Below are positions 2,760-14,161 of a stretch of 45,163 nt of DNA, piece by piece. The DNA comes from Lachnospiraceae bacterium. Lineage in GTDB: Bacteria > Bacillota > Clostridia > Lachnospirales > Lachnospiraceae. The notes under the pieces are model-generated. The model saw only the letters and a program-made list of their open reading frames with translations, ran no database searches and was not told where the DNA came from. The stretch covers positions 1 to 45,163 of the forward strand of contig JAFZNO010000062.1 of the NCBI GenBank assembly GCA_017552985.1, written 5' to 3'. The translations under genes and the position numbers were made by a program. Each line of letters begins with the position of its first letter. Positions within the stretch are counted from its first letter, which is position 1.

Positions 2760-4118
2760 TTATTTCAACTCTCCAAGCTGAACGTCCATCTGCATTTCCT
2801 TATATCCGTTCAGCGTTTGGCGAAGAATCTTTACGCGAATCGTCGTATCCGGCGTCTTGTTGTTCAAGATGGTTATGTAGTCAGGGAAATTGTTCACGTC
2901 GCGGTCATCGATCTGGATGATCAGGTCACCCTTTTGGATCCCCGCACGCATGGCGGGAGAGTCCAGAGCCACGTCCTTTACGTAAGCACCGTAGGGAACC
3001 TTGAGCTCTTCGTGAACGTTTAGGGCAACGGAGGTTCCGTAAATTCCAAAATAAGCAAAGGGCTGATTGTTGGAAAGCTTTTCCATCCGCTTTTTAAGGT
3101 CTGAGACACCATATGCGGTAATGACGTTTTCCATGCCTCTTTCATTATAACGCTGGGTGATGAATCCTATAAACTGTCCGTATAAGTCGAACAGCGCGCC
3201 GTCCGCGTTGGGACTTCCCACGATGTCCGTCTGCAAAAGCTTATAGTTCACGTCCTCGTCAGAGGCCTGTCCGGACGTGGAAGTGATGATGCCAAAGCCT
3301 GCGGAATTCACGCTTCCCATCGGGCTTCCGAGAGCTATGATGGGCATGCCAACCATGTCCCTGTAGTTCGAGGATCCAATCTTCGCAACGGCAATGGTCT
3401 CCTTCAAGAACTCCTCGGGAAGTGCTTCAACGGGTACCGAAACAACCGCAAGCCCCGTGCTGGGATCCTTTCTCTTAAACTCAGCCGTCGTAACGGCTCC
3501 GTTACAAAACTCAACGTTCAGGCGCTGCGCATTCTCCAATGAGGAATAGTCCGTCAGGATCATCAGTTCCTTGGTGTTGTTGACAATGATGATGCCGGAT
3601 GCACGGTTTTTCATCTCATTGACGTTATCAAACCAGTCCACCCGGGACGTGATGCCCGTCAGGGTTACCATGGATTTTTGCATCTGTCTGGCATATTCCG
3701 ACATGGCATTATACATCTGTCTGTAATTGATCTGATCCAATTGGATCTGCGACAGAATGTCACGGATCTGCTCCTCCGTAAGCTCCGGAGCGAAAGGATC
3801 CATTTCTTCAGGTCCTCTTACAACCGGCGAATTCGTAGGCGCAACCGTCTCCTGGGGACTCTCAATGAGCATTTCCTCGGGAGACATCTCCTCCGTCTCC
3901 TCCGGAAAATAGATTTTCGGAAGCTCTTTTTCCGGATTCATCCAGCGACTGAGAACCGGTTCCAGAGACAAAAAGATCACGCATGCCACCAAGCCAAACA
4001 GCACTGCCATGGCCGCCGTAAAGAGCATTCTCCGCACCAATTTTCCCTTATTGATGGGCCGCTCTTTGATCTTCTCTATCATAAAATCACTTTGCGCGTT
4101 CGGATCTTTCTCTGCCAT
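2760..4118 (-). CDS. Membrane-anchored HtrA/DegP-like protein with degenerate catalytic triad plus PDZ domain
   Basis: A 452-residue protein with a short cytoplasmic N-terminus, one transmembrane segment (about 32-52), a Pro/Glu-rich linker, a trypsin-like domain (about 145-345) and a C-terminal PDZ domain (about 355-450, with GAYVKDVALDSPAMRAGI and GDLIIQIDD). The layout is that of Firmicutes HtrA-type surface proteases. The catalytic positions look lost: the usual TNxHV motif reads ILTDYSSL (187-194, Tyr in place of His), the Asp motif reads STGLAVV (220-226, no Asp) and the GNSGG motif reads SPNADGAL (302-309, Asp where Ser is expected). It is therefore probably a non-proteolytic PDZ scaffold or sensor. 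The start at 4118 is chosen over the upstream ATG at 4142 because GGAGGG lies 6 nt before it. Confidence 0.85.
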   Translation of the reverse strand: MAEKDPNAQSDFMIEKIKERPINKGKLVRRMLFTAAMAVLFGLVACVIFLSLEPVLSRWMNPEKELPKIYFPEETEEMSPEEMLIESPQETVAPTNSPVVRGPEEMDPFAPELTEEQIRDILSQIQLDQINYRQMYNAMSEYARQMQKSMVTLTGITSRVDWFDNVNEMKNRASGIIIVNNTKELMILTDYSSLENAQRLNVEFCNGAVTTAEFKRKDPSTGLAVVSVPVEALPEEFLKETIAVAKIGSSNYRDMVGMPIIALGSPMGSVNSAGFGIITSTSGQASDEDVNYKLLQTDIVGSPNADGALFDLYGQFIGFITQRYNERGMENVITAYGVSDLKKRMEKLSNNQPFAYFGIYGTSVALNVHEELKVPYGAYVKDVALDSPAMRAGIQKGDLIIQIDDRDVNNFPDYITILNNKTPDTTIRVKILRQTLNGYKEMQMDVQLGELK

Positions 4119-4143
4119 AGTTTTCCCTCCAAATCTATACACA

Positions 4144-4172
4144 AGTATATCGAAAGAATGGGCAAAAGTAAA
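4144..4172 (-). promoter_or_regulatory. Possible sigma-A promoter for the pseudo-HtrA gene
   Basis: On the minus strand TTTACT (4172-4167) is followed by 17 nt and TATACT (4149-4144), about 25 nt before the start codon. The -35 element overlaps the terminator of the radical SAM operon. Match to consensus is moderate. Confidence 0.45.
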
Positions 4173-4187
4173 GGGCTTTCCCTTTAC
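4164..4187 (-). terminator. Rho-independent terminator of the lipoprotein/radical SAM operon
   Basis: Minus-strand RNA has an 8-bp perfect stem GTAAAGGG/CCCTTTAC with a 4-nt loop followed by TTTT, 20 nt after the radical SAM stop codon. Confidence 0.75.
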
Positions 4188-4207
4188 CTAGGAAAACCCC
4201 GTGCGTC

Positions 4208-5314
4208 TTATAAAGCTCCTTTTTTATGGTATGGACTGTCTGGTATCATGCATATTCTGGGGCGATTAAGATCATAATCCCAACTGTGATAGGGTCCGCC
4301 TTCGCAATATTTCTCATTGGGACATGCCTGGCATTCCTTGCATTTTTGAGAAAGCGGCGTGCGGAAAATCTGAAATCTGTTCAGCCATACGTCCGTAAAA
4401 TCATCCTTCAACACGTTGCCCTGGATGGTCTCCGGCCTGCGCTCAATGTCCAGACAGGCACCAATGTCGCCGTTTGCCATTATGCTGGCCGCATATACGC
4501 CTGCATTGCATAAATAATACCACTCCCTGACCTCTTTTTCATAAGCAAGGCCTAAGTAATGCGAACAGCTGTAGGTCACCTCATAACCCGCTTCCCGTTT
4601 CTCCTTGATATAGTTCAACATCTGAAGCTGTTGTTCCATCGAAAGCGCATATTCCGGGAAATCCAAAGCCCGCCCGATGGGTTCCATGCCCAAAATCCTC
4701 CAGGAATCCACGTTCAAGTCTACGAGGAATGCAAACAACTCCTCCAGATTGGGAAGATTCTTGGTCGTCACCACCGTTGTCACCTGAACCTCTTCGAAAT
4801 TCTGTTCCAAAAGATTCTTTATGCCTTCCACTGCGCGCATAAATGCATTGGGCGTGCGCCGGAACTGATCATGATACTCCTGCGTTCCGTCAAGGCTGAC
4901 GGATATGGTCGTCATGCCGGCTTCCTTTAATTTTCTTGCCACGTCCTTTGTAATTAAAGTGCCGTTACTGGTCATGCCCCAGGCAAAACCTAATTTTTTC
5001 GCATAATTCACGATTTCAAAGAATTCTTTGCGCAACAAAGGTTCACCGCCGGTAATGATTAACGCGGGCAACTTTCCCGCGAAATCTTTTGCAATCTTTT
5101 CCAGCACGGAATAATAAACTTGAACCGGTAATTCCTCGGACGCTACTTCTCCGCACCTGCTGCCGCAATGAATACAGTTTTCATTGCATTTTAAGGTTAA
5201 TTCCAAAAATAAAAAGCGCAGTTGGGGATCCTTGCGCAATGCTTTGTGATACTGCGCAAGGATCTCTAACTCCGCTATTTTCTGATTCATTCCAAGCTCT
5301 TCAGAATGACTCAT
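4208..5314 (-). CDS. Radical SAM/SPASM-domain protein, likely maturase of the adjacent small lipoprotein
   Basis: A 368-residue radical SAM enzyme. The [4Fe-4S]-SAM motif is C43-x3-C47-x2-C50 within LTLKCNENCIHCG, with GGEPL at 89-93. The C-terminal half is a SPASM domain that should bind auxiliary clusters: C250, C269, C287 (in a GX4C arrangement), C325, C328, C331, C337 and C355. Enzymes with this architecture often modify ribosomally made peptides, though others process non-peptide substrates. The gene overlaps the stop of the upstream 75-residue lipoprotein by 4 nt (ATGA), implying translational coupling and a functional pairing. A second in-frame ATG at codon 9 is an alternative start. 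The pair resembles radical SAM/lipoprotein systems known mostly from Bacteroidetes (TIGR04133/TIGR04134 type, from memory). Substrate and chemistry are unknown. Confidence 0.85.
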   Translation of the reverse strand: MSHSEELGMNQKIAELEILAQYHKALRKDPQLRFLFLELTLKCNENCIHCGSRCGEVASEELPVQVYYSVLEKIAKDFAGKLPALIITGGEPLLRKEFFEIVNYAKKLGFAWGMTSNGTLITKDVARKLKEAGMTTISVSLDGTQEYHDQFRRTPNAFMRAVEGIKNLLEQNFEEVQVTTVVTTKNLPNLEELFAFLVDLNVDSWRILGMEPIGRALDFPEYALSMEQQLQMLNYIKEKREAGYEVTYSCSHYLGLAYEKEVREWYYLCNAGVYAASIMANGDIGACLDIERRPETIQGNVLKDDFTDVWLNRFQIFRTPLSQKCKECQACPNEKYCEGGPYHSWDYDLNRPRICMIPDSPYHKKGAL

Positions 5315-5538
5315 AGGTCGTTCTCTTCCATACTTTCGTCAAACACTTCCACGTCGAACGTTGCATTGATCTCCGTGGCTTCCTGATTCTCTGCATCAAA
5401 AACTGCCACCGTTCTTCCGCTCATGTCACGGGTATAATGATCGGGCGGACTACCATATGCGCAGGCATTCATGTTTAACGCAGCCGTGAAAACGGCCCCG
5501 GCGATAATCGCCTTTTTAACGCCTTTTTTCATTTTCAT
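5311..5538 (-). CDS. 75-residue putative lipoprotein, candidate radical SAM substrate
   Basis: The protein starts MKMKKGVKKAIIAGAVFTAA and reaches a lipobox-like NMNAC with C26, so it should be exported and lipid-anchored, leaving a ~50-residue mature part. That part begins CAYGSPPDHYTRD and ends in an acidic tail rich in Glu, Asp, Phe and Val. The start at 5538 is preferred over the 93-codon extension because AGGAGGG lies 7 nt before it and a promoter -10 box lies inside the extension. The stop overlaps the start of the radical SAM gene, and a dedicated promoter lies just upstream. No enzymatic domain is visible. It is the obvious candidate substrate or partner of the radical SAM enzyme, but this is inference from context. 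Confidence 0.8.
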   Translation of the reverse strand: MKMKKGVKKAIIAGAVFTAALNMNACAYGSPPDHYTRDMSGRTVAVFDAENQEATEINATFDVEVFDESMEENDL

Positions 5539-5563
5539 AATGCGCCCTCCTTTGGTAAGTAGC

Positions 5564-5592
5564 ATTATACCACAAAACCAAAACAAAATCAA
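5564..5592 (-). promoter_or_regulatory. Strong sigma-A promoter of the lipoprotein/radical SAM operon
   Basis: Minus strand TTGATT (5592-5587), 17-nt spacer, TATAAT (5569-5564) with an extended -10 TGG. The -35 box includes the TGA stop of the upstream beta-helix lipoprotein gene, so the two genes abut while transcription is independent. Confidence 0.8.
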
Positions 5593-7550
5593 GTGTTGGG
5601 GTTTCCGTCGGAGCCATTCGGGAAGTTCGGCATATTATCGAAGTTACCATCGAAGTTTTTCGGGAAATTCGGCATATTATCGAAGTTACCGTCGAAGTCT
5701 TTCGGGAAGTTCGGCATATTATCGAAGTTACCGTCAAAGCCCTCTGGCATTTCAGGCAGTCCCTCGAAATTACCGTTGAAACCCTCCGGGAAGCTGGGTT
5801 TTTCCTTTGATCCGTCGCCCTGGTCATCCTTTCCGCCTCTGCCGGGACCGCCAAAGTTACCACGATTATCGCCATTTGGACCGCCGAAACCTCCAGGACC
5901 GCCAAATCCAAAGGATTGACCGTAAAGCAATTCGTCCAGGGTAAAGGTCTTTGTCTCACTGCCCATGGTCAGCGTATAAGTCTTTCCCTGCTCCATGAGG
6001 GGGCTGCTGACAACAACGGAAGCATATTTTCTGGTGGAAGTAAATTCCAGGATCACGTTGCCGTCACTGTCCTTTAACTGTACGGTTTCACCGGCATTAT
6101 GGGTGGAATCCGCCTTTAGGATCGCACTGCCCTGGGTGCTCTTCGAGAAATTCATTGCCATGCCGGAAGAGCCGATGGCGATCACGCTTCCGCCCGTGAT
6201 CTCTCCAACGCCATCGTAATCAATGGCACCATTCATGGCATTTTCCGGACCGGCCACGTAAGTCTCGCCGCCCTTTACGTACAGGCTTCCGTTGGCATCA
6301 ATGCCGTCTCCCTGGGCATCTATGGTGATCCTGCCGCCCGAGATCAGCACGTAAACGTCGGAAGTCGTCTTACTTGCATCCTTAGATTCGTTTCCGCCCT
6401 TAGACTTGGTTCCGTCTTTCGATCCCGTTCCGTCTTTCGATCCAGACCTGCCGCCGAATCCGCCTCCAAATCCTCCGCCGAAACCTCCCTCGAAGGAAGA
6501 TCCGCTTCCGTCGGAAGCGTTTATGCCGTCATCACTTGCGCGGACGGTTACGTCACCGCCGGCAATCTCCACGATCGCTGCCTCCAAACCCTCCTTGCTC
6601 TTTTGCAGATCGATGGTTCCGTCTGCGATCACCAGCTTGGTCTCACCGTGAATGCCGTCATCCTCTGCGGAAATGGTGATCTTTCCACCGGCAATATATA
6701 CGTATCCCTTCTCTGCGTCCTCATCATTACCGGAGTGAAGGCCATCCTTCACGGAAGTGACGGTGATCGTGCCGTCAGCAACGCGGATGCTGTCCTTTCC
6801 GGAAATGCCGTGTGCGCCAGCCTTGATCTCATAGGTCCCGCTCGTGATCTTCAGATCATCCTTGGAGACAATGCCATGTCCCGTTTCTGAGCTGACGGTC
6901 AGAGTTCCGTTACCGTTCAGGGTTAAGTCGCACTTGGAATAAATCGCGCCGTCAATATTATTGTCATCGATGGCCTGAAATTCGCCATCATTCGTGATCT
7001 GGTTCTTGCTGCCCTCCGCCATGGTGATAAAGAGCTTGTCGGCAGTCTTGCCATAAATGGCAGCCGTTCCGGATTTCTTCAGCGTCACGCCGTCCAGGAT
7101 CAGCTGCACCTTTGCGTCGTCAGGCGCTTCCACGCGGATGGAACCATTGTAGGTGCCGCGCAGGAGATAATATCCTTCGGCTTTGATAACGACGGTGCCG
7201 TCTTCGATCGAAACTACTTCACTCTCACAGGAAGCCTCCCCGCCGTTTAACGTGATCAAAACACATTCCGATTCCTCATAATCCGTTTTCACGTCACGCT
7301 TTGAAAACATGTCGCTGACGTCCAGCGTCGTCACCTCCGCAGACTTTGAAGCAAGCACCTGCTGGCTTGTTCCACCCTGCACCGGCTTGTCGTCCGCATT
7401 TGATTCTGCCTGCGATGCCCCCTGCTCCGTGGAAACGCTTGCATCCGTCTTATCCTGCGCATTGCTGCATCCGCTTATGAATAATGCACCTGAAAGGATC
7501 ATCGTTGCCAAGACCCTTGTAAACTTTCGTAAAATCTCTTTTCTTTTCAT
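5589..7550 (-). CDS. Cell-surface lipoprotein with Cthe_2159-type carbohydrate-binding beta-helix and Gly/Asn-rich tail
   Basis: A 653-residue protein from the ATG at 7550 (GGAGG about 8 nt upstream; the longer reading from 7583 lacks this). A lipoprotein signal ends at FISGC (C28). After a Ser/Ala/Asp-rich linker comes a long run of short repeated strands with GDGIDAN-, DDGINAS- and SKDDLKIT-like turns, typical of a right-handed parallel beta-helix and of the Cthe_2159 (PF14262) carbohydrate-binding family. A Gly/Lys/Ser-rich loop interrupts the helix. The C-terminal ~110 residues are low complexity, rich in Gly, Asn, Phe and Pro, ending in three copies of a 14-residue FDGNFDNMPNFPK-type repeat. 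It follows a DUF4956 gene and VTC gene, the usual neighbours of this family. Likely anchored outside the membrane and binding polysaccharide; the ligand is unknown. Confidence 0.85.
   Translation of the reverse strand: MKRKEILRKFTRVLATMILSGALFISGCSNAQDKTDASVSTEQGASQAESNADDKPVQGGTSQQVLASKSAEVTTLDVSDMFSKRDVKTDYEESECVLITLNGGEASCESEVVSIEDGTVVIKAEGYYLLRGTYNGSIRVEAPDDAKVQLILDGVTLKKSGTAAIYGKTADKLFITMAEGSKNQITNDGEFQAIDDNNIDGAIYSKCDLTLNGNGTLTVSSETGHGIVSKDDLKITSGTYEIKAGAHGISGKDSIRVADGTITVTSVKDGLHSGNDEDAEKGYVYIAGGKITISAEDDGIHGETKLVIADGTIDLQKSKEGLEAAIVEIAGGDVTVRASDDGINASDGSGSSFEGGFGGGFGGGFGGRSGSKDGTGSKDGTKSKGGNESKDASKTTSDVYVLISGGRITIDAQGDGIDANGSLYVKGGETYVAGPENAMNGAIDYDGVGEITGGSVIAIGSSGMAMNFSKSTQGSAILKADSTHNAGETVQLKDSDGNVILEFTSTRKYASVVVSSPLMEQGKTYTLTMGSETKTFTLDELLYGQSFGFGGPGGFGGPNGDNRGNFGGPGRGGKDDQGDGSKEKPSFPEGFNGNFEGLPEMPEGFDGNFDNMPNFPKDFDGNFDNMPNFPKNFDGNFDNMPNFPNGSDGNPNT
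5617..5742. repeat. Three in-frame 42-bp tandem repeats inside the beta-helix lipoprotein gene
   Basis: Units begin at 5617, 5659 and 5701 (exact 42-bp period) and encode three FDGNFDNMPNFPK-like repeats at the protein C-terminus. Nucleotide identity between units is high, so copy number could vary by slippage or recombination. Confidence 0.9.
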
Positions 7551-7621: not shown

Positions 7622-8320
7622 TCATAACTCAGCCTGCTGCGTCTTGTCACGCTTTGAAAGTGAGATTTCCAAATTTCCGTTCCGCGTGCGAAGCTTGTCT
7701 AAAAACTCCTTTTCTTTTCCGATCTCCTTTAAGGTGATGCCGTAAGTAAGCTTGAAAAGGCTTCCCATGTTAGTCGTCTTAACGTTTGTCAGTTCGTGCT
7801 CCGTCGTATACTGTTCCATGATCTCCTCAAACACGGTCTCGTAATCCAGATTCTCCGGAATGGTCACGTGAAGCGTTTTCTCCATCGGCAAACTCTTTTT
7901 CGTCCCGATGCCAAGTCCCACGTAAGCCAGGAAAACAATGCTCATGATGATCGTAAACAGGAAGGCGTACCCGATGTATCCCATTCCCAGGATCAAGCCT
8001 GATCCCATCGCCAGGAAGATGGCGCAGATCTCTTTTGCGCTGCCGGGTGCCGAGCGGAATCTCACGAGGCTAAAGGCTCCCGCAACCGCAATGCCCGTCC
8101 CCACGTTGCCGTTTACCATCATGATCACCACACATACCACCGCGGGCAGGATCGCCAGCGAAAGGAAAAAGCTCTGAGAGTGATTTGCCTTATAGGTCGT
8201 AACCATGGCCAAAAAGAATCCGATCAAAAGCGCTGCTCCCAGGCAGATAATAAAATCGCCAACCTGCAGGGATGCGGTGCTGGCTGTCTCGTCAAAAACT
8301 CCTTGAAATAAAGTATTCAT
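7622..8320 (-). CDS. DUF4956 domain membrane protein
   Basis: A 232-residue protein with four to five hydrophobic segments (about 21-45, 50-72, 76-90 and 100-140) followed by a soluble C-terminal domain of ~90 residues. The conserved SLVRFRSAPGSAKE-type loop after the third segment is characteristic of DUF4956 proteins. They are regularly encoded beside VTC-domain polyphosphate polymerase-like proteins and CotH or beta-helix surface proteins, suggesting a joint membrane machine, but no biochemical role is established. The start codon (8320) follows the VTC stop by 4 nt with an AGGAT ribosome binding site overlapping the VTC end, so the genes are translationally coupled. 71 nt without a clear terminator separate it from the next lipoprotein gene. 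Confidence 0.85.
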   Translation of the reverse strand: MNTLFQGVFDETASTASLQVGDFIICLGAALLIGFFLAMVTTYKANHSQSFFLSLAILPAVVCVVIMMVNGNVGTGIAVAGAFSLVRFRSAPGSAKEICAIFLAMGSGLILGMGYIGYAFLFTIIMSIVFLAYVGLGIGTKKSLPMEKTLHVTIPENLDYETVFEEIMEQYTTEHELTNVKTTNMGSLFKLTYGITLKEIGKEKEFLDKLRTRNGNLEISLSKRDKTQQAEL

Positions 8321-8324
8321 ACGC

Positions 8325-9020
8325 TCATCCTACCTTTCTCTTTTGCTGAAAAGCATTGCCGTATTTCGAAAAAGAAATCTGATAGATTCCCAGTTCTGAA
8401 AGGCTCCGCGCCAGCCACATGGGCATCGCGCCTCCGACCTTGATCTCCGCAAGGGTTTGGTCCTTCTCCAGCAATGCATTACCATAGGCCTCCTGCCGCA
8501 AGCTTAAATCCGTTTCCCGCCACAGAATGTTTTCGTCAAACGTGATCCGAAGATCGGACCCATCCAGATCATAAAAGGCTTCCCTCTCATAGGAGATCAC
8601 CATTGCCGGCATGAGATTTTGATAAAAGGACTTAAAGTAATCTATCTCTTCCGTGATCTGATCCGACTTTGAAAACGGTTTTCCCTTTGAGAAATATTCC
8701 ATCGCTTCCTGCTCCGTGGCGGTGGTCCTTCTCTTGTATACAATACCGTCATATTTCTTCTTCAGCTCCACGAAAACGATGCCGTCGCTCGTCGCCGTGC
8801 CATAGCTGCGAAGCCGTAACTTCTCCTTGTAGACGGGCTTTTCCAGAGATCTGCGGATCAAAAGATATTCCGGCGTGTCATAATATACGTTCATAATGGT
8901 CGTCCTGCCATACTGATCCAACGCCATATGAGGCTCCATCGCCTTCAGCAGACCCTCCTTCTGCCCCCTATTTAACATATATTTCAACTCATATCTCTTA
9001 AACGTATCCTGATAACTCAT
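8325..9020 (-). CDS. VTC-domain (polyphosphate polymerase-like) protein
   Basis: A 231-residue single-domain protein of the VTC triphosphate-tunnel type. Basic and acidic tunnel residues are visible in FKRYELKYML, YYDTPEYLLIRRSLEKP, EKLRLRSYG, FVELKKKYDG, ISYEREAFY and LAEIKVGGAMP. In yeast VTC4 this fold makes polyphosphate; bacterial versions linked to DUF4956 and CotH proteins are not proven to do so and may phosphorylate or sense another substrate. The gene has a strong GGGAGG ribosome binding site and is first in an operon with DUF4956 and the beta-helix lipoprotein. Its promoter carries direct repeats shared with the nearby two-component system promoter. Confidence 0.85.
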   Translation of the reverse strand: MSYQDTFKRYELKYMLNRGQKEGLLKAMEPHMALDQYGRTTIMNVYYDTPEYLLIRRSLEKPVYKEKLRLRSYGTATSDGIVFVELKKKYDGIVYKRRTTATEQEAMEYFSKGKPFSKSDQITEEIDYFKSFYQNLMPAMVISYEREAFYDLDGSDLRITFDENILWRETDLSLRQEAYGNALLEKDQTLAEIKVGGAMPMWLARSLSELGIYQISFSKYGNAFQQKRKVG

Positions 9021-9474: not shown

Positions 9475-10827
9475 TTATCCTAGCGGCAACGTTGCCTTGA
9501 ATTCAATGGATGCGCCATCCTTGCTGACGGCGGTGATCTTACCGTGATGGGCTTCCACGATGGAGCGAACGATGGAAAGTCCTATGCCGGAGCCGCCAGT
9601 CTTGGAATTCCGGGAGCGATCCGGACGATAGAAACGCTCAAATAATTCCTCCTTATTTCCCACGTCAATCTGATCTACCGTATTCCATAGCACGATCTCG
9701 GCTTTCTTTCCTTTCTGGCACAGGGAAAGTCGGATTTTCGGCTTTCCTGCTTTTGAGGCTTCCGCGCCTTCCTCCGCCGGCGATTTGATCGAAGCATATT
9801 TCATGGCATTGTCCAAAAGCAGCCCCGTCATCTGACGGATCTGCTTCTCATCGCCCGTCATGGAAACGTTCTCCGCCACGTCGATCACAAATTCCTTGCC
9901 GCTTTGTTCCGCCACGGGAAGATAAGCCTGCGCCGTGTCTATCAGTGCATCGCTCAGGGAGAATTTCTCCTTTGCAACCTCCTTTTGTTCATCAAGGCGC
10001 GACAGCGTCACCATCTGTTCCACAAGACCGATCATGCGCTCCAGCTGCTTTTTGATGCTCTTGCTCCACTGGGATTCCTCCGACTCCATCTCCATGACTT
10101 CCAGATTTGCGGAGATAATGGTAAGGGGCGTTTTCAATTCATGGCTGGCATCCGTAACAAACTGCTTCTGCTTCCGATAGCTTTGTTCCACGGGCTTAAA
10201 TACCTTCTTGGAAAAGAACAGCACCAGAAGAAAAACGGCCAAAAGTCCGAGGGCCGATGCGCCGATGCTAGTGACTAAAACCTTGCGGAAATTTGCCAGA
10301 TCCGTTGCACTGTCGACGAAAAGAACGAAGTAACCATCGTCGGTTTTCGTGATCCGGTAACGGTATTCATCATAAAAACCATTCAACGATTGCTTGTTAT
10401 TTAATTTTTTATAGATGGTTTGCGCATAGGTCTTTGCGGTCTCTTCATCGATGGATGCGATCATGGCGCCATCCGTCTTTGTCACTTCGCCATTGCTGTT
10501 AAGCGTCACGGAGAAAAAGCGCGTCTCGTAAGGCATCTCACGGGTAAAGCCTTCCCAGGGCATAAATCCTTTCCGGTTCTTCCCAAAGGACGCATCCTGC
10601 ATCTGCTTTTCAGGAAATGCGTTATCTCTTTCCCGTGGCTGCTTTTCCATGTTAAAAAACGCCGGAAATCTTCCGTTATTGTCGGAAAGAAGGGCTAAAA
10701 TTTCATCCTTCTTTTGCACCGTGCCCGTGTAATTCAATATGTTCAAGGTTCCAATGATCACGACCAAAACTGCCAGCGTGGAGCACATGGCAACCAGAAT
10801 GAATTGTCTTCGAAGCTTTTGTATCAT
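9475..10827 (-). CDS. Sensor histidine kinase
   Basis: A 450-residue membrane kinase. Transmembrane segments at about 9-33 and 184-206 flank an extracytoplasmic sensor region of ~150 residues that is rich in charged residues and has no family I recognise. There is no clear HAMP domain: the second membrane segment leads through a short linker straight into HisKA with the phosphoacceptor H229 in FVTDASHELKTPLT. The HATPase_c domain shows the N box (LLDNAMKYAS) and G2 box (GGSGIGLSIVRSIVEAH). The gene follows its response regulator by 39 nt and ends before a strong terminator. It likely controls the adjacent VTC operon, given the shared promoter repeats. Confidence 0.9.
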   Translation of the reverse strand: MIQKLRRQFILVAMCSTLAVLVVIIGTLNILNYTGTVQKKDEILALLSDNNGRFPAFFNMEKQPRERDNAFPEKQMQDASFGKNRKGFMPWEGFTREMPYETRFFSVTLNSNGEVTKTDGAMIASIDEETAKTYAQTIYKKLNNKQSLNGFYDEYRYRITKTDDGYFVLFVDSATDLANFRKVLVTSIGASALGLLAVFLLVLFFSKKVFKPVEQSYRKQKQFVTDASHELKTPLTIISANLEVMEMESEESQWSKSIKKQLERMIGLVEQMVTLSRLDEQKEVAKEKFSLSDALIDTAQAYLPVAEQSGKEFVIDVAENVSMTGDEKQIRQMTGLLLDNAMKYASIKSPAEEGAEASKAGKPKIRLSLCQKGKKAEIVLWNTVDQIDVGNKEELFERFYRPDRSRNSKTGGSGIGLSIVRSIVEAHHGKITAVSKDGASIEFKATLPLG

Positions 10828-10866
10828 TGCTTTTTATCCTTTTCCAAAGCTAAAGTTTGCAGTTGT

Positions 10867-11538
10867 TTACTTCTTTTCCAGGGAATAGCCCTGATTGCGC
10901 ACGGCCTTGATCTCTATGTCCGCGCCGAGGGCCGCCAGTTTTTTCCGGAGATTGGAAACGTAAACCCAGACAACGCCGATCTCGGTGTCGGAATCATATC
11001 CCCAAACCTTTTCCATAAAGCGGTCCGTGGAGATGATCTGTCCGGGATTCACGATCAGCATTTCCATCATCTGAAAATCCTTGTTGGCCAGGCGGATCTT
11101 CTCCTCCCCAACGGAGAGCTCAAAGGTTGAACGGTTTAAGGTGACGTTTCCAAGGGTAAGCACATTGTCCGTAAGGGTGCTTTGACGTCTTGTCATGGCA
11201 CGCACCCGGGCAAGTAATTCCTTCATGGCAAAGGGCTTTCCCAGATAATCGTCTGCGCCGGAATCAAGTCCTTCCACACGGTCGTCCACCTGCGTTTTCG
11301 CCGTAAGAAGAAGCACCGGAACCTGATTTTTGTGGGCCCTGAGGGTTCGGAGCACTTCCAGTCCACTTTTCTTGGGCATCATAATGTCAAGGATGATGCC
11401 GTCATATTCCTGTCCCTCCGCATAATCTAAGGCATCCTGACCATTATACACCGCATCCACGGAATAGTTGTTTCGCCGAAGCACCGCCGTCAAGGCTTCG
11501 CTCAATTCTTCCTCATCTTCCGCCAAAAGTAATCTCAT
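10867..11538 (-). CDS. OmpR-family response regulator
   Basis: A 223-residue regulator with a receiver domain (acidic pocket AEDEEE, phosphoacceptor D51 in ILDIMMPKK, and the conserved lysine in GKPF) and a C-terminal winged helix (about 125-220, with VWGYDSDTEIGVVWVYVSNLRKKL). It is upstream of and cotranscribed with the histidine kinase. Its own promoter carries TTTAAGG-type direct repeats that recur before the VTC operon, so it is probably autoregulatory and the activator of that operon. This is inference from DNA repeats. Confidence 0.92.
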   Translation of the reverse strand: MRLLLAEDEEELSEALTAVLRRNNYSVDAVYNGQDALDYAEGQEYDGIILDIMMPKKSGLEVLRTLRAHKNQVPVLLLTAKTQVDDRVEGLDSGADDYLGKPFAMKELLARVRAMTRRQSTLTDNVLTLGNVTLNRSTFELSVGEEKIRLANKDFQMMEMLIVNPGQIISTDRFMEKVWGYDSDTEIGVVWVYVSNLRKKLAALGADIEIKAVRNQGYSLEKK

Positions 11539-11605
11539 GGGTTACTCCTTTCTAAAACTTAGTTGTTTCTCAAGGTTTTTCATTCTATTGTTCCACGTTA
11601 GATTC

Positions 11606-11638
11606 ATTTTATCATGGAAACCTTAAATCTGCATTAAA
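11606..11638 (-). promoter_or_regulatory. Response regulator promoter with direct repeats
   Basis: Minus-strand -10 TAAAAT lies at 11611-11606. Nine nt upstream are CCTTAAA (11621-11627, plus strand) and CATTAAA (11632-11638), 11 bp apart. The minus-strand decamer TTTAAGGTTT is identical to the one in the VTC promoter. Confidence 0.65.
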
Positions 11639-11764
11639 TTTATGCGCAAAGGTTGCACAAGAAAAAAAATAATGCGTTTCTTTCATAAATGTGTTAAAAT
11701 AACGAGGAAAGATGGCGTTTTGCGCATTTTTGCCGTCTTAGAAGAAAGGATTTTTTAGGTCATC

Positions 11765-14161
11765 ATGAACGAGAAAGTATTAAAAACCTTAGAATATAAT
11801 AAGATCATCGACCTGCTGGCGCAGAAGGCCGATTCCGAACCGGGAAGGAAACTTTGCCGGGAACTTTTGCCGTCCACGGACATTGACGAGATCCGCACGG
11901 CGCAAGGCGAGACGAGGGACGCCATCTCCAAGATCTTTAAGTCTGGCAGCACCTCCTTTGGAAGCAACAAAGATCTCGGTTTTTCCATCCGTTCCTTAGA
12001 GATCGGCAGCACGCTCTCTTCTTCTGAATTATTGAAGATCGCGGGGTTGTTGGACAACGTTAACCGCATTAAGACTTATGGGAAGAAGGAACGCGAGGAT
12101 GCGCCGGAGGATCTGCTGGATCCTTATTTCACGGCGCTCACGCCCCTGGTGCAGGTTGCAAACGAGATCAATCGCTGCATCATCGGCGAGGATGAGTTTG
12201 CGGATGACGCAAGTCCAAAGCTCAAGAGCATCCGCCGCAGCATCCAGGTCACGGGGGAGAAGATCCACAATCAGTTAAATTCCATGTTGACGGGCCCTTA
12301 CCGCACCTATCTGCAGGATGCGGTGATCACCATGCGCAATAATCGCTACTGCATTCCCGTCAAGTCAGAATACAAGGGACAGGTGACGGGCATGGTGCAC
12401 GACCAGTCCTCGAGCGGTTCCACGTTTTTCATCGAGCCTGCTGCCATCGTAAACCTCAACAATCAGCTGAAGGAGCTAGACCTTCAGGAGAAGGAAGAAA
12501 TCGAGCACATTCTCGCGGAGCTGAGTTACCTCTGCGCAGGTCATACGGAAGAACTCGCAGTGAACCAGCGCACCATGACAAAGCTGGACTTCATCTTTGC
12601 AAAGGCAAAGCTGGCGCTGGATCAAAACGCGACGGAACCGCAGTTTAACCGCAAGCATATCATCAATATCCGCAAAGGTCGTCATCCCTTGTTGGATAAG
12701 AAAAAGGTTGTTCCCATCGACATTCATCTTGGCCGCGACTTCGACCTCCTGATCATCACGGGACCGAACACCGGCGGTAAGACCGTATCCTTAAAAACCG
12801 TGGGACTCTTTACGCTGATGGGCCAGGCGGGTTTGCATATTCCGGCATTGGATCGCTCAGAGCTTTCCGTCTTTACGGAGGTCTTCGCGGACATTGGCGA
12901 CGAACAGAGCATTGAGCAGAGCTTATCCACCTTCTCCTCTCACATGACCAGCATTGTCCACATTTTGAAGCATGCGGACGAGCATTCCCTGTGTCTGTTT
13001 GATGAGCTCGGAGCCGGAACGGATCCGACGGAGGGCGCTGCACTTGCGATCTCCATCTTAAATTACCTGCATGACCGCGGTATCCGCACCATGGCAACCA
13101 CGCATTATAGTGAGCTGAAGATCTACGCGCTCTCTACGGATTTCGTGCAGAACGCCTGCTGTGAATTCAGCGTGGAAACCCTGCAGCCGACTTATAAGCT
13201 TCTGATCGGCATTCCCGGAAAGAGTAACGCTTTCGCGATCTCTTCCAAACTGGGCCTTCCGGATGACATTATCAATGCCGCAAAGGAACAGATCAGCAAG
13301 GAAGAGACCAGCTTTGAGGACGTGATCGCGGATCTGGAAGAAAACCGCGTCCGCATGGAGAGAGAGCGTCAGGAGATCGAGAAAAAGAAAGAAAACATCC
13401 GTCTCCTGGAAGAACAGTTAAAACAGAAAAACGAAAAGATCGACAAAGCCAAGGACAAGATCCTGCGCGAGGCCAACGAAAAGGCACGTGAGATCCTGCA
13501 GGACGCAAAGGACGTTGCAGACGAGACCATTCGCGACTTCAATAAGGCCAGCGCCATGGGCATCGACATGAAGACCCTGGAGCAAAAGCGTCAGGCAGTT
13601 CGCGACAAGATCAAGGAAAAGAACGACAAGCTCTCCCTTGGACAAAAGCCCGCACAGACTTCAAACGGCGTGAAGGGCCTTGATCCCAAGAAGCTCATGA
13701 AGGGTGATTCCGTAAAGATCGTTTCCATGAACCTGAAGGGAACCGTCAGCACCCTGCCGGACGCAAAGGGAAATCTCTTCGTACAATGCGGCATCATGCG
13801 CATGCAGACCAACGTATCTGACTTAGTCATGATCAAGGAAGAGGATTTCAATGATCCGAAGCCAAACCGTGGTCAGACGACCGGCATCGGCAAGATCAAA
13901 ATGTCGAAATCCCTGTCCGTTTCACCTGAGATCAATCTTCTCGGCAAGACCGTGGACGAGGCCTTGACGGAACTTGATAAATATTTGGATGATGCATATC
14001 TTGCACACCTTCCGAGCGTTCGCATCGTACACGGAAAAGGTACGGGAGCCCTTCGGAATGCCGTACACTCCCATCTGAAAAAGCTGCGGACCATTAAGGA
14101 ATTCCGCCTGGGCGAATTCGGCGAAGGCGATGCCGGCGTGACGATTGCAACGTTTAAGTAA
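11765..14161 (+). CDS. mutS2: MutS2: MutS-like ATPase with C-terminal Smr domain
   Basis: A 798-residue protein with the MutS core and ATPase (Walker A GPNTGGKT at 333-340; signature LSTFSSHM; Walker B SLCLFDELGAGTDP), a long Lys/Glu-rich coiled coil (about 520-630), a KOW-like segment (KGDSVKIVSMNLKGTV) and a C-terminal Smr domain with HGKGTG. MutS2 proteins act in suppression of recombination or in rescue of collided ribosomes in Bacillus; they are not mismatch-repair MutS. The usual Smr LDLRG motif reads INLLG here. The gene begins a plus-strand block running against replication, followed by a two-component system after 11 nt. An AGG ribosome binding site lies ~7 nt before the ATG. A small hairpin at 11709-11736 precedes the gene. 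Confidence 0.95.
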   Translation: MNEKVLKTLEYNKIIDLLAQKADSEPGRKLCRELLPSTDIDEIRTAQGETRDAISKIFKSGSTSFGSNKDLGFSIRSLEIGSTLSSSELLKIAGLLDNVNRIKTYGKKEREDAPEDLLDPYFTALTPLVQVANEINRCIIGEDEFADDASPKLKSIRRSIQVTGEKIHNQLNSMLTGPYRTYLQDAVITMRNNRYCIPVKSEYKGQVTGMVHDQSSSGSTFFIEPAAIVNLNNQLKELDLQEKEEIEHILAELSYLCAGHTEELAVNQRTMTKLDFIFAKAKLALDQNATEPQFNRKHIINIRKGRHPLLDKKKVVPIDIHLGRDFDLLIITGPNTGGKTVSLKTVGLFTLMGQAGLHIPALDRSELSVFTEVFADIGDEQSIEQSLSTFSSHMTSIVHILKHADEHSLCLFDELGAGTDPTEGAALAISILNYLHDRGIRTMATTHYSELKIYALSTDFVQNACCEFSVETLQPTYKLLIGIPGKSNAFAISSKLGLPDDIINAAKEQISKEETSFEDVIADLEENRVRMERERQEIEKKKENIRLLEEQLKQKNEKIDKAKDKILREANEKAREILQDAKDVADETIRDFNKASAMGIDMKTLEQKRQAVRDKIKEKNDKLSLGQKPAQTSNGVKGLDPKKLMKGDSVKIVSMNLKGTVSTLPDAKGNLFVQCGIMRMQTNVSDLVMIKEEDFNDPKPNRGQTTGIGKIKMSKSLSVSPEINLLGKTVDEALTELDKYLDDAYLAHLPSVRIVHGKGTGALRNAVHSHLKKLRTIKEFRLGEFGEGDAGVTIATFK

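Follow-up and report, generated by a model that had tools for sequence, protein, structure and literature searches.

Does the radical SAM enzyme encoded immediately behind a small lipoprotein act on that lipoprotein and, if so, at which residues and by what chemistry? The question is raised by two overlapping genes in a 45,163-nucleotide stretch of Lachnospiraceae DNA (the window; Table 1). The reading best supported by the sequences, to which we give a probability of about 60%, is that the enzyme, which is of the TIGR04133 type, would splice the lipoprotein at A27-Y28-G29, next to its predicted lipidated cysteine, Cys26.

Both reading frames lie where the initial annotation had placed them, with the enzyme start and the lipoprotein stop sharing an ATGA at 5311-5314 and the lipoprotein starting at the ATG at 5538. 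The promoter described there is also present. A promoter scan is weak on its own (4 promoter-like sites in the stretch against 2.6 expected from shuffles); the -35, -10 and ribosome-binding sequences are preserved in a relative, G011, whereas the tail of the upstream gene diverges. The claim that the operon is independent of that gene held in part: its own promoter is conserved, but the -35 element shares bases with the stop codon of the Cthe_2159 gene upstream, so read-through into the operon may occur, and the scan found no minus-strand terminator between this gene and the lipoprotein gene. The dedicated terminator fared similarly, in that a hairpin follows the enzyme gene and is kept in G011, but its fold is weak (shuffle z -1.62, with 14 of 200 shuffles folding equally well) and its T-run is interrupted. 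An Rfam scan of 4100-5700 gave no match above gathering scores. Lipoprotein and enzyme are under purifying selection, with dN/dS against G011 of 0.13 and 0.07, respectively; the two enzymes are 96% identical.

Table 1 Features of the operon and its products in the window
Feature	Position	Strand	Basis
Lipoprotein gene, 75 aa, predicted substrate of the radical SAM enzyme	5311..5538 (stop included)	minus	ORF
Radical SAM/SPASM enzyme gene, 368 aa	4208..5314	minus	ORF and Pfam
Ribosome-binding site GGAGGG of the lipoprotein gene	5545..5550	minus	read from sequence; kept in G011
Promoter TTGATT-N17-TATAAT, TG preceding -10	5564..5592	minus	10/12 consensus; kept in G011
Weak hairpin resembling an intrinsic terminator, 3' of the enzyme gene	4172..4200	minus	folding against shuffles; kept in G011
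Cluster motif CNENCIHCGS of the enzyme	5159-5188	minus	sequence
Signal peptide, residues 1-25	5464..5538	minus	basic start and Ala-rich hydrophobic stretch, by reading
CAYGSPPDHY: Cys26 (predicted lipidated), then X-Y-G-x-P-P	5434..5463	minus	read from sequence
Predicted modification site A-Y-G (A27-Y28-G29)	5452-5460	minus	YG(x)P conserved in partners
Acidic tail FDAENQEATEINATFDVEVF	5341..5400	minus	by-eye comparison

The upstream gene (5589-7547, minus strand) encodes a Cthe_2159-type protein (PF14262) with imperfect C-terminal GNFDNMPNFPK repeats, and is adjoined by genes for DUF4956 and VTC-domain proteins (7622-8320 and 8325-9020, both minus). We considered its GNFDNMPNFP repeats as a candidate substrate, an idea weakened by its being a neighbour only in G011 among 13 other whole-genome loci. 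Directly downstream of the enzyme gene, a PDZ/trypsin-like and probably membrane-bound protease is encoded at 2760-4118 (minus); this gene is found in G011 as well, but no enzyme gene in the remaining whole-genome loci compared was seen to have it as a neighbour.

The enzyme belongs to the radical SAM/SPASM proteins by its CxxxCxxC core, SPASM cysteines and fold. Pfam detects Radical_SAM (4.8e-24) and SPASM (1.8e-6), the cluster and SPASM cysteines are invariant in homologue alignments, and the AlphaFold model (pLDDT 91.5) has the SPASM-maturase fold with a single helix ahead of the first core strand. In the fold search SuiB aligns to the enzyme from residue 97, and the RRE of SuiB presumably lies before that residue; the alignment start and the single N-terminal helix of the model suggest that the enzyme may have no RRE of its own. 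The fold-search rows for 5why and 5wgg begin at chain residues 10 and 8, and no structure named splicease is among the matches listed, which excludes nothing. TIGR04133 is the best NCBIfam model (E 5.5e-86, 288.7 bits against a cut-off of 425). TIGR04103 scores 105 bits (cut-off 725) and is outscored by nine further models, led by NirJ2, AhbD and MftC. For enzymes of four other loci TIGR04103 ranks second (L038), fourth (L012), seventh (L098) and eleventh (L037), and TIGR04133 in turn ranks third for L119 and L123, behind TIGR04103 and TIGR03913, and fourth for a Nostoc TIGR04103 enzyme with which the window enzyme shares 27% identity.

We pooled 94 loci of related enzymes (14 whole-genome loci including the window, and 80 from genome_contigs) and dereplicated them at 90% enzyme identity, which dropped 14 and left 80. 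A signal-bearing protein with YG(x)P is encoded near the enzyme on the same strand in 73 loci and on the opposite strand in 5. With YGPP the counts were 69 and 0, and the control motifs PPGY, FGPP, YAPP and GYPP gave 0 on both strands; looser same-strand controls gave 10 loci for FG(x)P, 7 each for P(x)GY, YA(x)P and YS(x)P, 2 for HG(x)P and 0 for WG(x)P. One short ORF with YAPPP is present at L049. By inspection, the partner is found in 77 of the 80 loci, since the YGPP proteins of L048 and L055 had failed a crude signal rule and those of L079 and L085 probably have their starts cut by the contig end. At L050 the partner copy is frame-broken, L052 includes only 128 bases upstream, and L094, with an intact enzyme (51%), has no YG partner within 4 kb on each side.

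A motif-blind test also returned YGPP, as the most over-represented tetrapeptide of the longest ORF just upstream of the enzyme (present in 63 of the 78 loci with such an ORF, out of 80, against 0.38 in shuffles). The 80 loci (741,362 bases) hold 88 same-strand YGPP proteins; a control set of 38 loci (94,770 bases), drawn from other radical SAM families and from regions retrieved for unrelated purposes, contains a single YG(x)P protein and none that combines a signal with YGPP. When neighbours were grouped by BLAST, the motif partner was found in 46 of 80 loci and the next families, which resemble an ABC ATPase and a MATE-type transporter, in 7 and 6. We conclude that the motif protein is the sole neighbour family common to many loci. 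It sits upstream or downstream of the enzyme in differing genomic surroundings, occurs likewise at the G804 and G774 loci outside the 80, and all three Bacteroidota/Treponema pairs examined carry the XYG motif. The precursor/maturase logic proposed from the gene layout is thus supported by co-occurrence, and the homologue comparison proposed with it yields YG(x)P as the conserved residues; partnerless homologues, named in advance as a counter-test, turned up once in the 80 loci (L094), L050 retaining its broken copy.

The substrate set comprises 96 proteins with a signal, or 100 once four more are included, and each has one to eight copies of the motif (three in L031, for example). Across 336 YG dipeptides in the 100 substrates, position -1 is V in 62%, L in 17% and A in 4%, and P occupies +2 in 87% and +3 in 83%; other +2 residues are V, A, D, T and I, with S in the window and L in Nostoc. 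The dipeptide before PP is YG in 268 cases and never FG, WG, YA or YS (68 GP arising from YGPPP were left out). Upstream, P is found at -9 in 46% and N at -6 in 32% of the same 336, and a frequent unit reads [FY]DPxxNxxxxVYGPPxxF. A lipobox-like Cys pattern matches 58 of 73 relatives, and dockerin type I matches 18 of 75 substrates at E ≤0.01, exceeding the Pfam cut-off in three of four checked singly. In ruminococci (L070, L082, L097, L098 and L100; L097 is Ruminococcus flavefaciens XPD3002) a single enzyme gene is preceded, as judged by eye, by between two and six YGPP paralogues in tandem, several of which bear dockerin. We rejected thioether or sactionine chemistry because most substrates (69 of 100) have no Cys beyond residue 32.

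Lipoproteins of Parabacteroides (PCEYGSPHANF), Phocaeicola (LCEYGTPSADY) and Treponema (SCYGMPENYY) exceed the TIGR04134 cut-off, and in these Bacteroidota/Spirochaetota pairs the motif lies at the lipobox Cys or a few residues away. The Firmicutes lipoprotein of L038, CGMYGPPPRSYY, scores 52.3 on TIGR04134 against a cut-off of 39.8, and this locus bridges the Firmicutes and Bacteroidota/Spirochaetota types. L012 is a divergent member (10797-12531) whose transmembrane peptide contains CYYGCP and whose enzyme carries a long extension at the C-terminus; we suspected a JAMM-like tail on this enzyme, for which Pfam at E 0.01 names nothing.

The window lipoprotein holds a single motif site. Its putative lipobox reads M-N-A-C (residues 23-26), which departs from the classic LxGC, and NMN[AG]C recurs among its relatives. 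It has orthologues in G011 and G804, in both of which CAYGSPPDHY is identical, and one match in its own genome. In that genome YGPP can be read at 17 DNA sites and the reversed pattern at 57; of the 17, 5 fall within an open frame of at least 30 aa: by eye, two resemble RuvB and another AAA ATPase, there are three others, and none is a second YGPP substrate with a signal-like start, in a search that covered YGPP alone, variants such as the window's YGSPP falling outside it. Both CAYGSPPDHY and the acidic tail had been put forward as regions of modification. Since YG(x)P recurs in partners across phyla and in the window, the A-Y-G adjoining the predicted lipidated Cys is the likely site. The tail was rejected: the bodies of relatives are acidic, yet their sequence is not conserved. 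It is perhaps, speculatively, a decayed second repeat unit, to judge from its likeness to FDPSRNFEATVYGPPEVF in G037. The signal peptide may double as a recognition leader; mean pairwise identity of the N-termini is 24% among 73 substrates and 9.6% among 60 control signal-like N-termini, a comparison that is only suggestive because it sets one family against unrelated proteins.

We next placed the enzyme in a maximum-likelihood tree of 28 enzymes, comprising 13 TIGR04133 rows, 6 TIGR04103/TIGR03913-like rows and 9 outgroup rows (MftC, NirJ-like, AhbD-like, TIGR04053 and TIGR04347); AcgM, on a very long branch, was part of a 25-row tree and was dropped for the 28-row tree. The window enzyme groups with annotated TIGR04133 proteins from Parabacteroides and Treponema in a single clade (support 99/99 with 28 rows, 100/99 with 25), and the TIGR04133 rows are sister to the TIGR04103/TIGR03913-like rows (99/96 and 96/95). 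This sister placement is good but not final, because the taxon sample is small and the outgroups are few. A G-S pair follows the cluster cysteines in all 19 rows of the two sister halves, and its G is found in no outgroup row. We take TIGR04103/TIGR03913 to be the group of the tyramine-excising 'splicease' PlpX, and IPR026482 to be the same as TIGR04103.

Five of the six sister rows have a small neighbour with XYG; at L129 there is no small XYG ORF in the locus stretch. A Nostoc Nif11 precursor ending IALYGLPPELF lies beside a TIGR04103 enzyme that scores 853 bits (cut-off 725), one of three annotated precursors at that locus having XYG, and L119 has an NHLP-leader peptide with AYG. DUF1843 peptides at L127 and L128 contain LYG, PYG and PYG in three of six cases and YA or YM in the other three. 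These peptides of the 'GDL trio' (L127, 1659-2372; L128, 1046-1746), which have their LYG/PYG or YA/YM near the N-terminus and are encoded beside TIGR03913-like enzymes, are possibly splice substrates too. On an Agathobacter rectalis plasmid (L123, 2207-3649), an unannotated 68-aa ORF ending VMYGTGVRM precedes a TIGR04103-like enzyme and an MFS transporter.

PlpX is a SPASM enzyme of IPR026482 that acts together with the RRE protein PlpY (PMC11002830), cuts tyramine out of Xaa-Tyr-Gly and reseals the chain with an alpha-keto amide, a change of -135.0757 Da (PMC11002830, PMC10533398), and can act several times within one precursor (PMC10373908). The natural sites given there are MYG and LYG (PMC11002830, PMC10533398, PMC10373908), and the tags accepted in FtsZ hold RPGYGLPI, not YGPP (PMC10533398).

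The sequences establish that the genes are paired, that the motif is conserved, that the anchors are of a surface type and that the enzymes are akin to those of TIGR04103/TIGR03913; we infer that a reaction takes place, what its chemistry would be and what purpose it might have. The enzyme would recognise the unfolded lipoprotein in the cytoplasm, perhaps through the signal peptide as leader, and excise tyramine at A27-Y28-G29 to leave a ketoamide (beta-amino acid) in the chain; export would come next, then lipidation at Cys26 and display at the cell surface. Relatives would be edited at up to eight such motifs, and dockerin may replace the lipid anchor. Going a step beyond splicing, the electrophilic ketoamide would probably be used to inhibit or covalently capture extracellular proteases at the surface. 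Beta-residues reportedly give protease inhibition, a result that reviews ascribe to Scott et al. 2022. PMC2930009 describes dockerin on serpins of R. flavefaciens FD-1 and on many other proteins whose modules are unknown; a number of the latter may be YGPP proteins. It is possible, though we consider it doubtful, that all these proteins make up a large undescribed class of surface proteins, anchored by lipid or dockerin and bearing between one and eight XYG(P)P sites, which would acquire beta-amino acids from RRE-free enzymes reading the Sec signal peptide as leader and, as ketoamide protease inhibitors, would shield the cell surface and the cellulosome of bacteria in gut and rumen.

The splicing reading is weakened in that PlpX works with PlpY, while no PlpY/RRE-type conserved neighbour was found in the 80 loci (ORFs of at least 60 aa within 4 kb). 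We also counted against it the single N-terminal helix of the model, the 27% identity, the 105-bit TIGR04103 score with nine models besides TIGR04133 ahead of it, the FtsZ tags without YGPP, the three of six DUF1843 peptides without YG, the one XYG precursor of three in Nostoc, the looser residue controls above zero, the YAPPP of L049, and L129 and L094. TIGR04133 enzymes might instead attack the Tyr of XYG by a non-splicing chemistry such as oxidation, side-chain loss or a Tyr crosslink, for example a ring-to-Pro three-residue cyclophane. Their specificity may have shifted, since they form their own deep clade (99/99), have no conserved nearby PlpY-like partner and are paired with substrates that mostly add PP after YG. 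There is a precedent in the mycofactocin maturase, a SPASM enzyme that decarboxylates Tyr and links Tyr to Val (PMC8326336). Before PP, however, the Gly after Tyr is as invariant as Tyr itself, and the residue at +2 varies from P to V, A, D, T or I, S in the window and L in Nostoc. The conserved Gly contrasts with the middle position of three-residue cyclophanes, which usually tolerates any residue. Taken together, we consider a different chemistry at Tyr unlikely, though well short of negligible.

It is less probable still that the enzyme modifies the lipoprotein elsewhere, in the acidic tail or the FDP...N context, with YGPP merely a recognition or structural element: the [FY]DPxxxN context recurs in many units, but it is missing before the window site and before the three Bacteroidota/Treponema motifs, all of which have YG(x)P. 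An ordinary gene pair, with a lipoprotein of unrelated use beside a metabolic radical SAM gene, would fit the intact but partnerless L094 and the patchy occurrence of the enzyme (8 of 138 genomes in the genus), and is largely refuted, hence very improbable, since the partner follows the enzyme through different surroundings, upstream or downstream, in three phyla, and YGPP marks 69 of 80 loci against 0 for mirrored or substituted forms.

At E 1e-60 the enzyme is found in 8 of 138 genomes of the genus, 6 of 146 relatives and 10 of 291 in the class (own genome included in each). A pattern scan of genome_contigs gave at least 586 enzyme relatives, and the best 80, which were kept, bear Firmicutes titles except L042 and L112 and come mostly from rumen or gut samples. 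L041 and L042, one from a Lachnospiraceae MAG and the other from a 'Paludibacteraceae' MAG, encode an identical partner and have equal match scores, for which a binning error may be the reason. The TIGR04134 profile matches 33 of 200 genomes of the family at E ≤0.1, none above the cut-off, and the matches listed lie mostly within very large open frames; phages gave two weak matches. The suggestion that a Firmicutes version would be new does not survive these titles or the L038 neighbour above the TIGR04134 cut-off.

The lipoprotein/enzyme pairing is already catalogued in NCBIfam (TIGR04133/TIGR04134), and in the open-access literature we found no paper on that pair or on YGPP with radical SAM enzymes. 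As far as the literature was searched, it is new that partners in three phyla share an XYG(P)P site, that this site is repeated, that some of the proteins bear dockerin, that no RRE neighbour is conserved and that the enzymes are sister to the splicease group; Scott et al. 2022 may already contain these proteins. A 'hypothetical equivalog' pair is thereby turned into a testable prediction of one short motif, one enzyme and one mass shift. If splicing takes place, many bacteria of gut and rumen would display backbone-edited proteins on their surface and in their cellulosomes, a setting in which protease inhibition is important, and enzymes without a conserved nearby partner gene could be simpler tools than PlpXY for installing ketoamides.

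Among known systems, the mycofactocin maturase MftC is likewise a SPASM enzyme that acts on tyrosine (PMC8326336). Unlike the window enzyme, it falls outside the XYG clade; its precursor ends GVY and the chaperone MftB adjoins. The TIGR03913 'GDL' trio lies in the sister clade, and three of its six DUF1843 peptides have LYG or PYG near the start; unlike the window lipoprotein, these peptides are short, have no signal peptide and have no assigned function. A further system is the 'hypothetical equivalog' pair of NCBIfam, TIGR04133 (rSAM_w_lipo) and TIGR04134 (lipo_with_rSAM), whose chemistry is unassigned. The comparison with this pair, proposed in the initial annotation, bears out common descent with TIGR04133, the window enzyme falling in its clade and likewise having a lipoprotein gene next to it, but both curated cut-offs are missed: the enzyme falls below 425 bits, and TIGR04134 (cut-off 39.8 bits) gives no hit to the lipoprotein at E ≤1, nor in a second search at E ≤0.05. 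The window lipoprotein also differs from TIGR04134 proteins in having no longer domain behind the motif, and it shares C-x-Y-G-S-P with that of Parabacteroides. From the PlpXY-type spliceases and their spliceotides (TIGR04103, nif11-class radical SAM maturase 3) the window system differs in that its substrate is an exported lipoprotein without a Nif11 or NHLP leader and no PlpY/RRE is conserved nearby. It resembles them in the sister position of its enzyme and in its XYG site, where Nostoc LYGLPPELF and window AYGSPPDHY agree at Y, G, P and P and have the similar residues D/E and Y/F.
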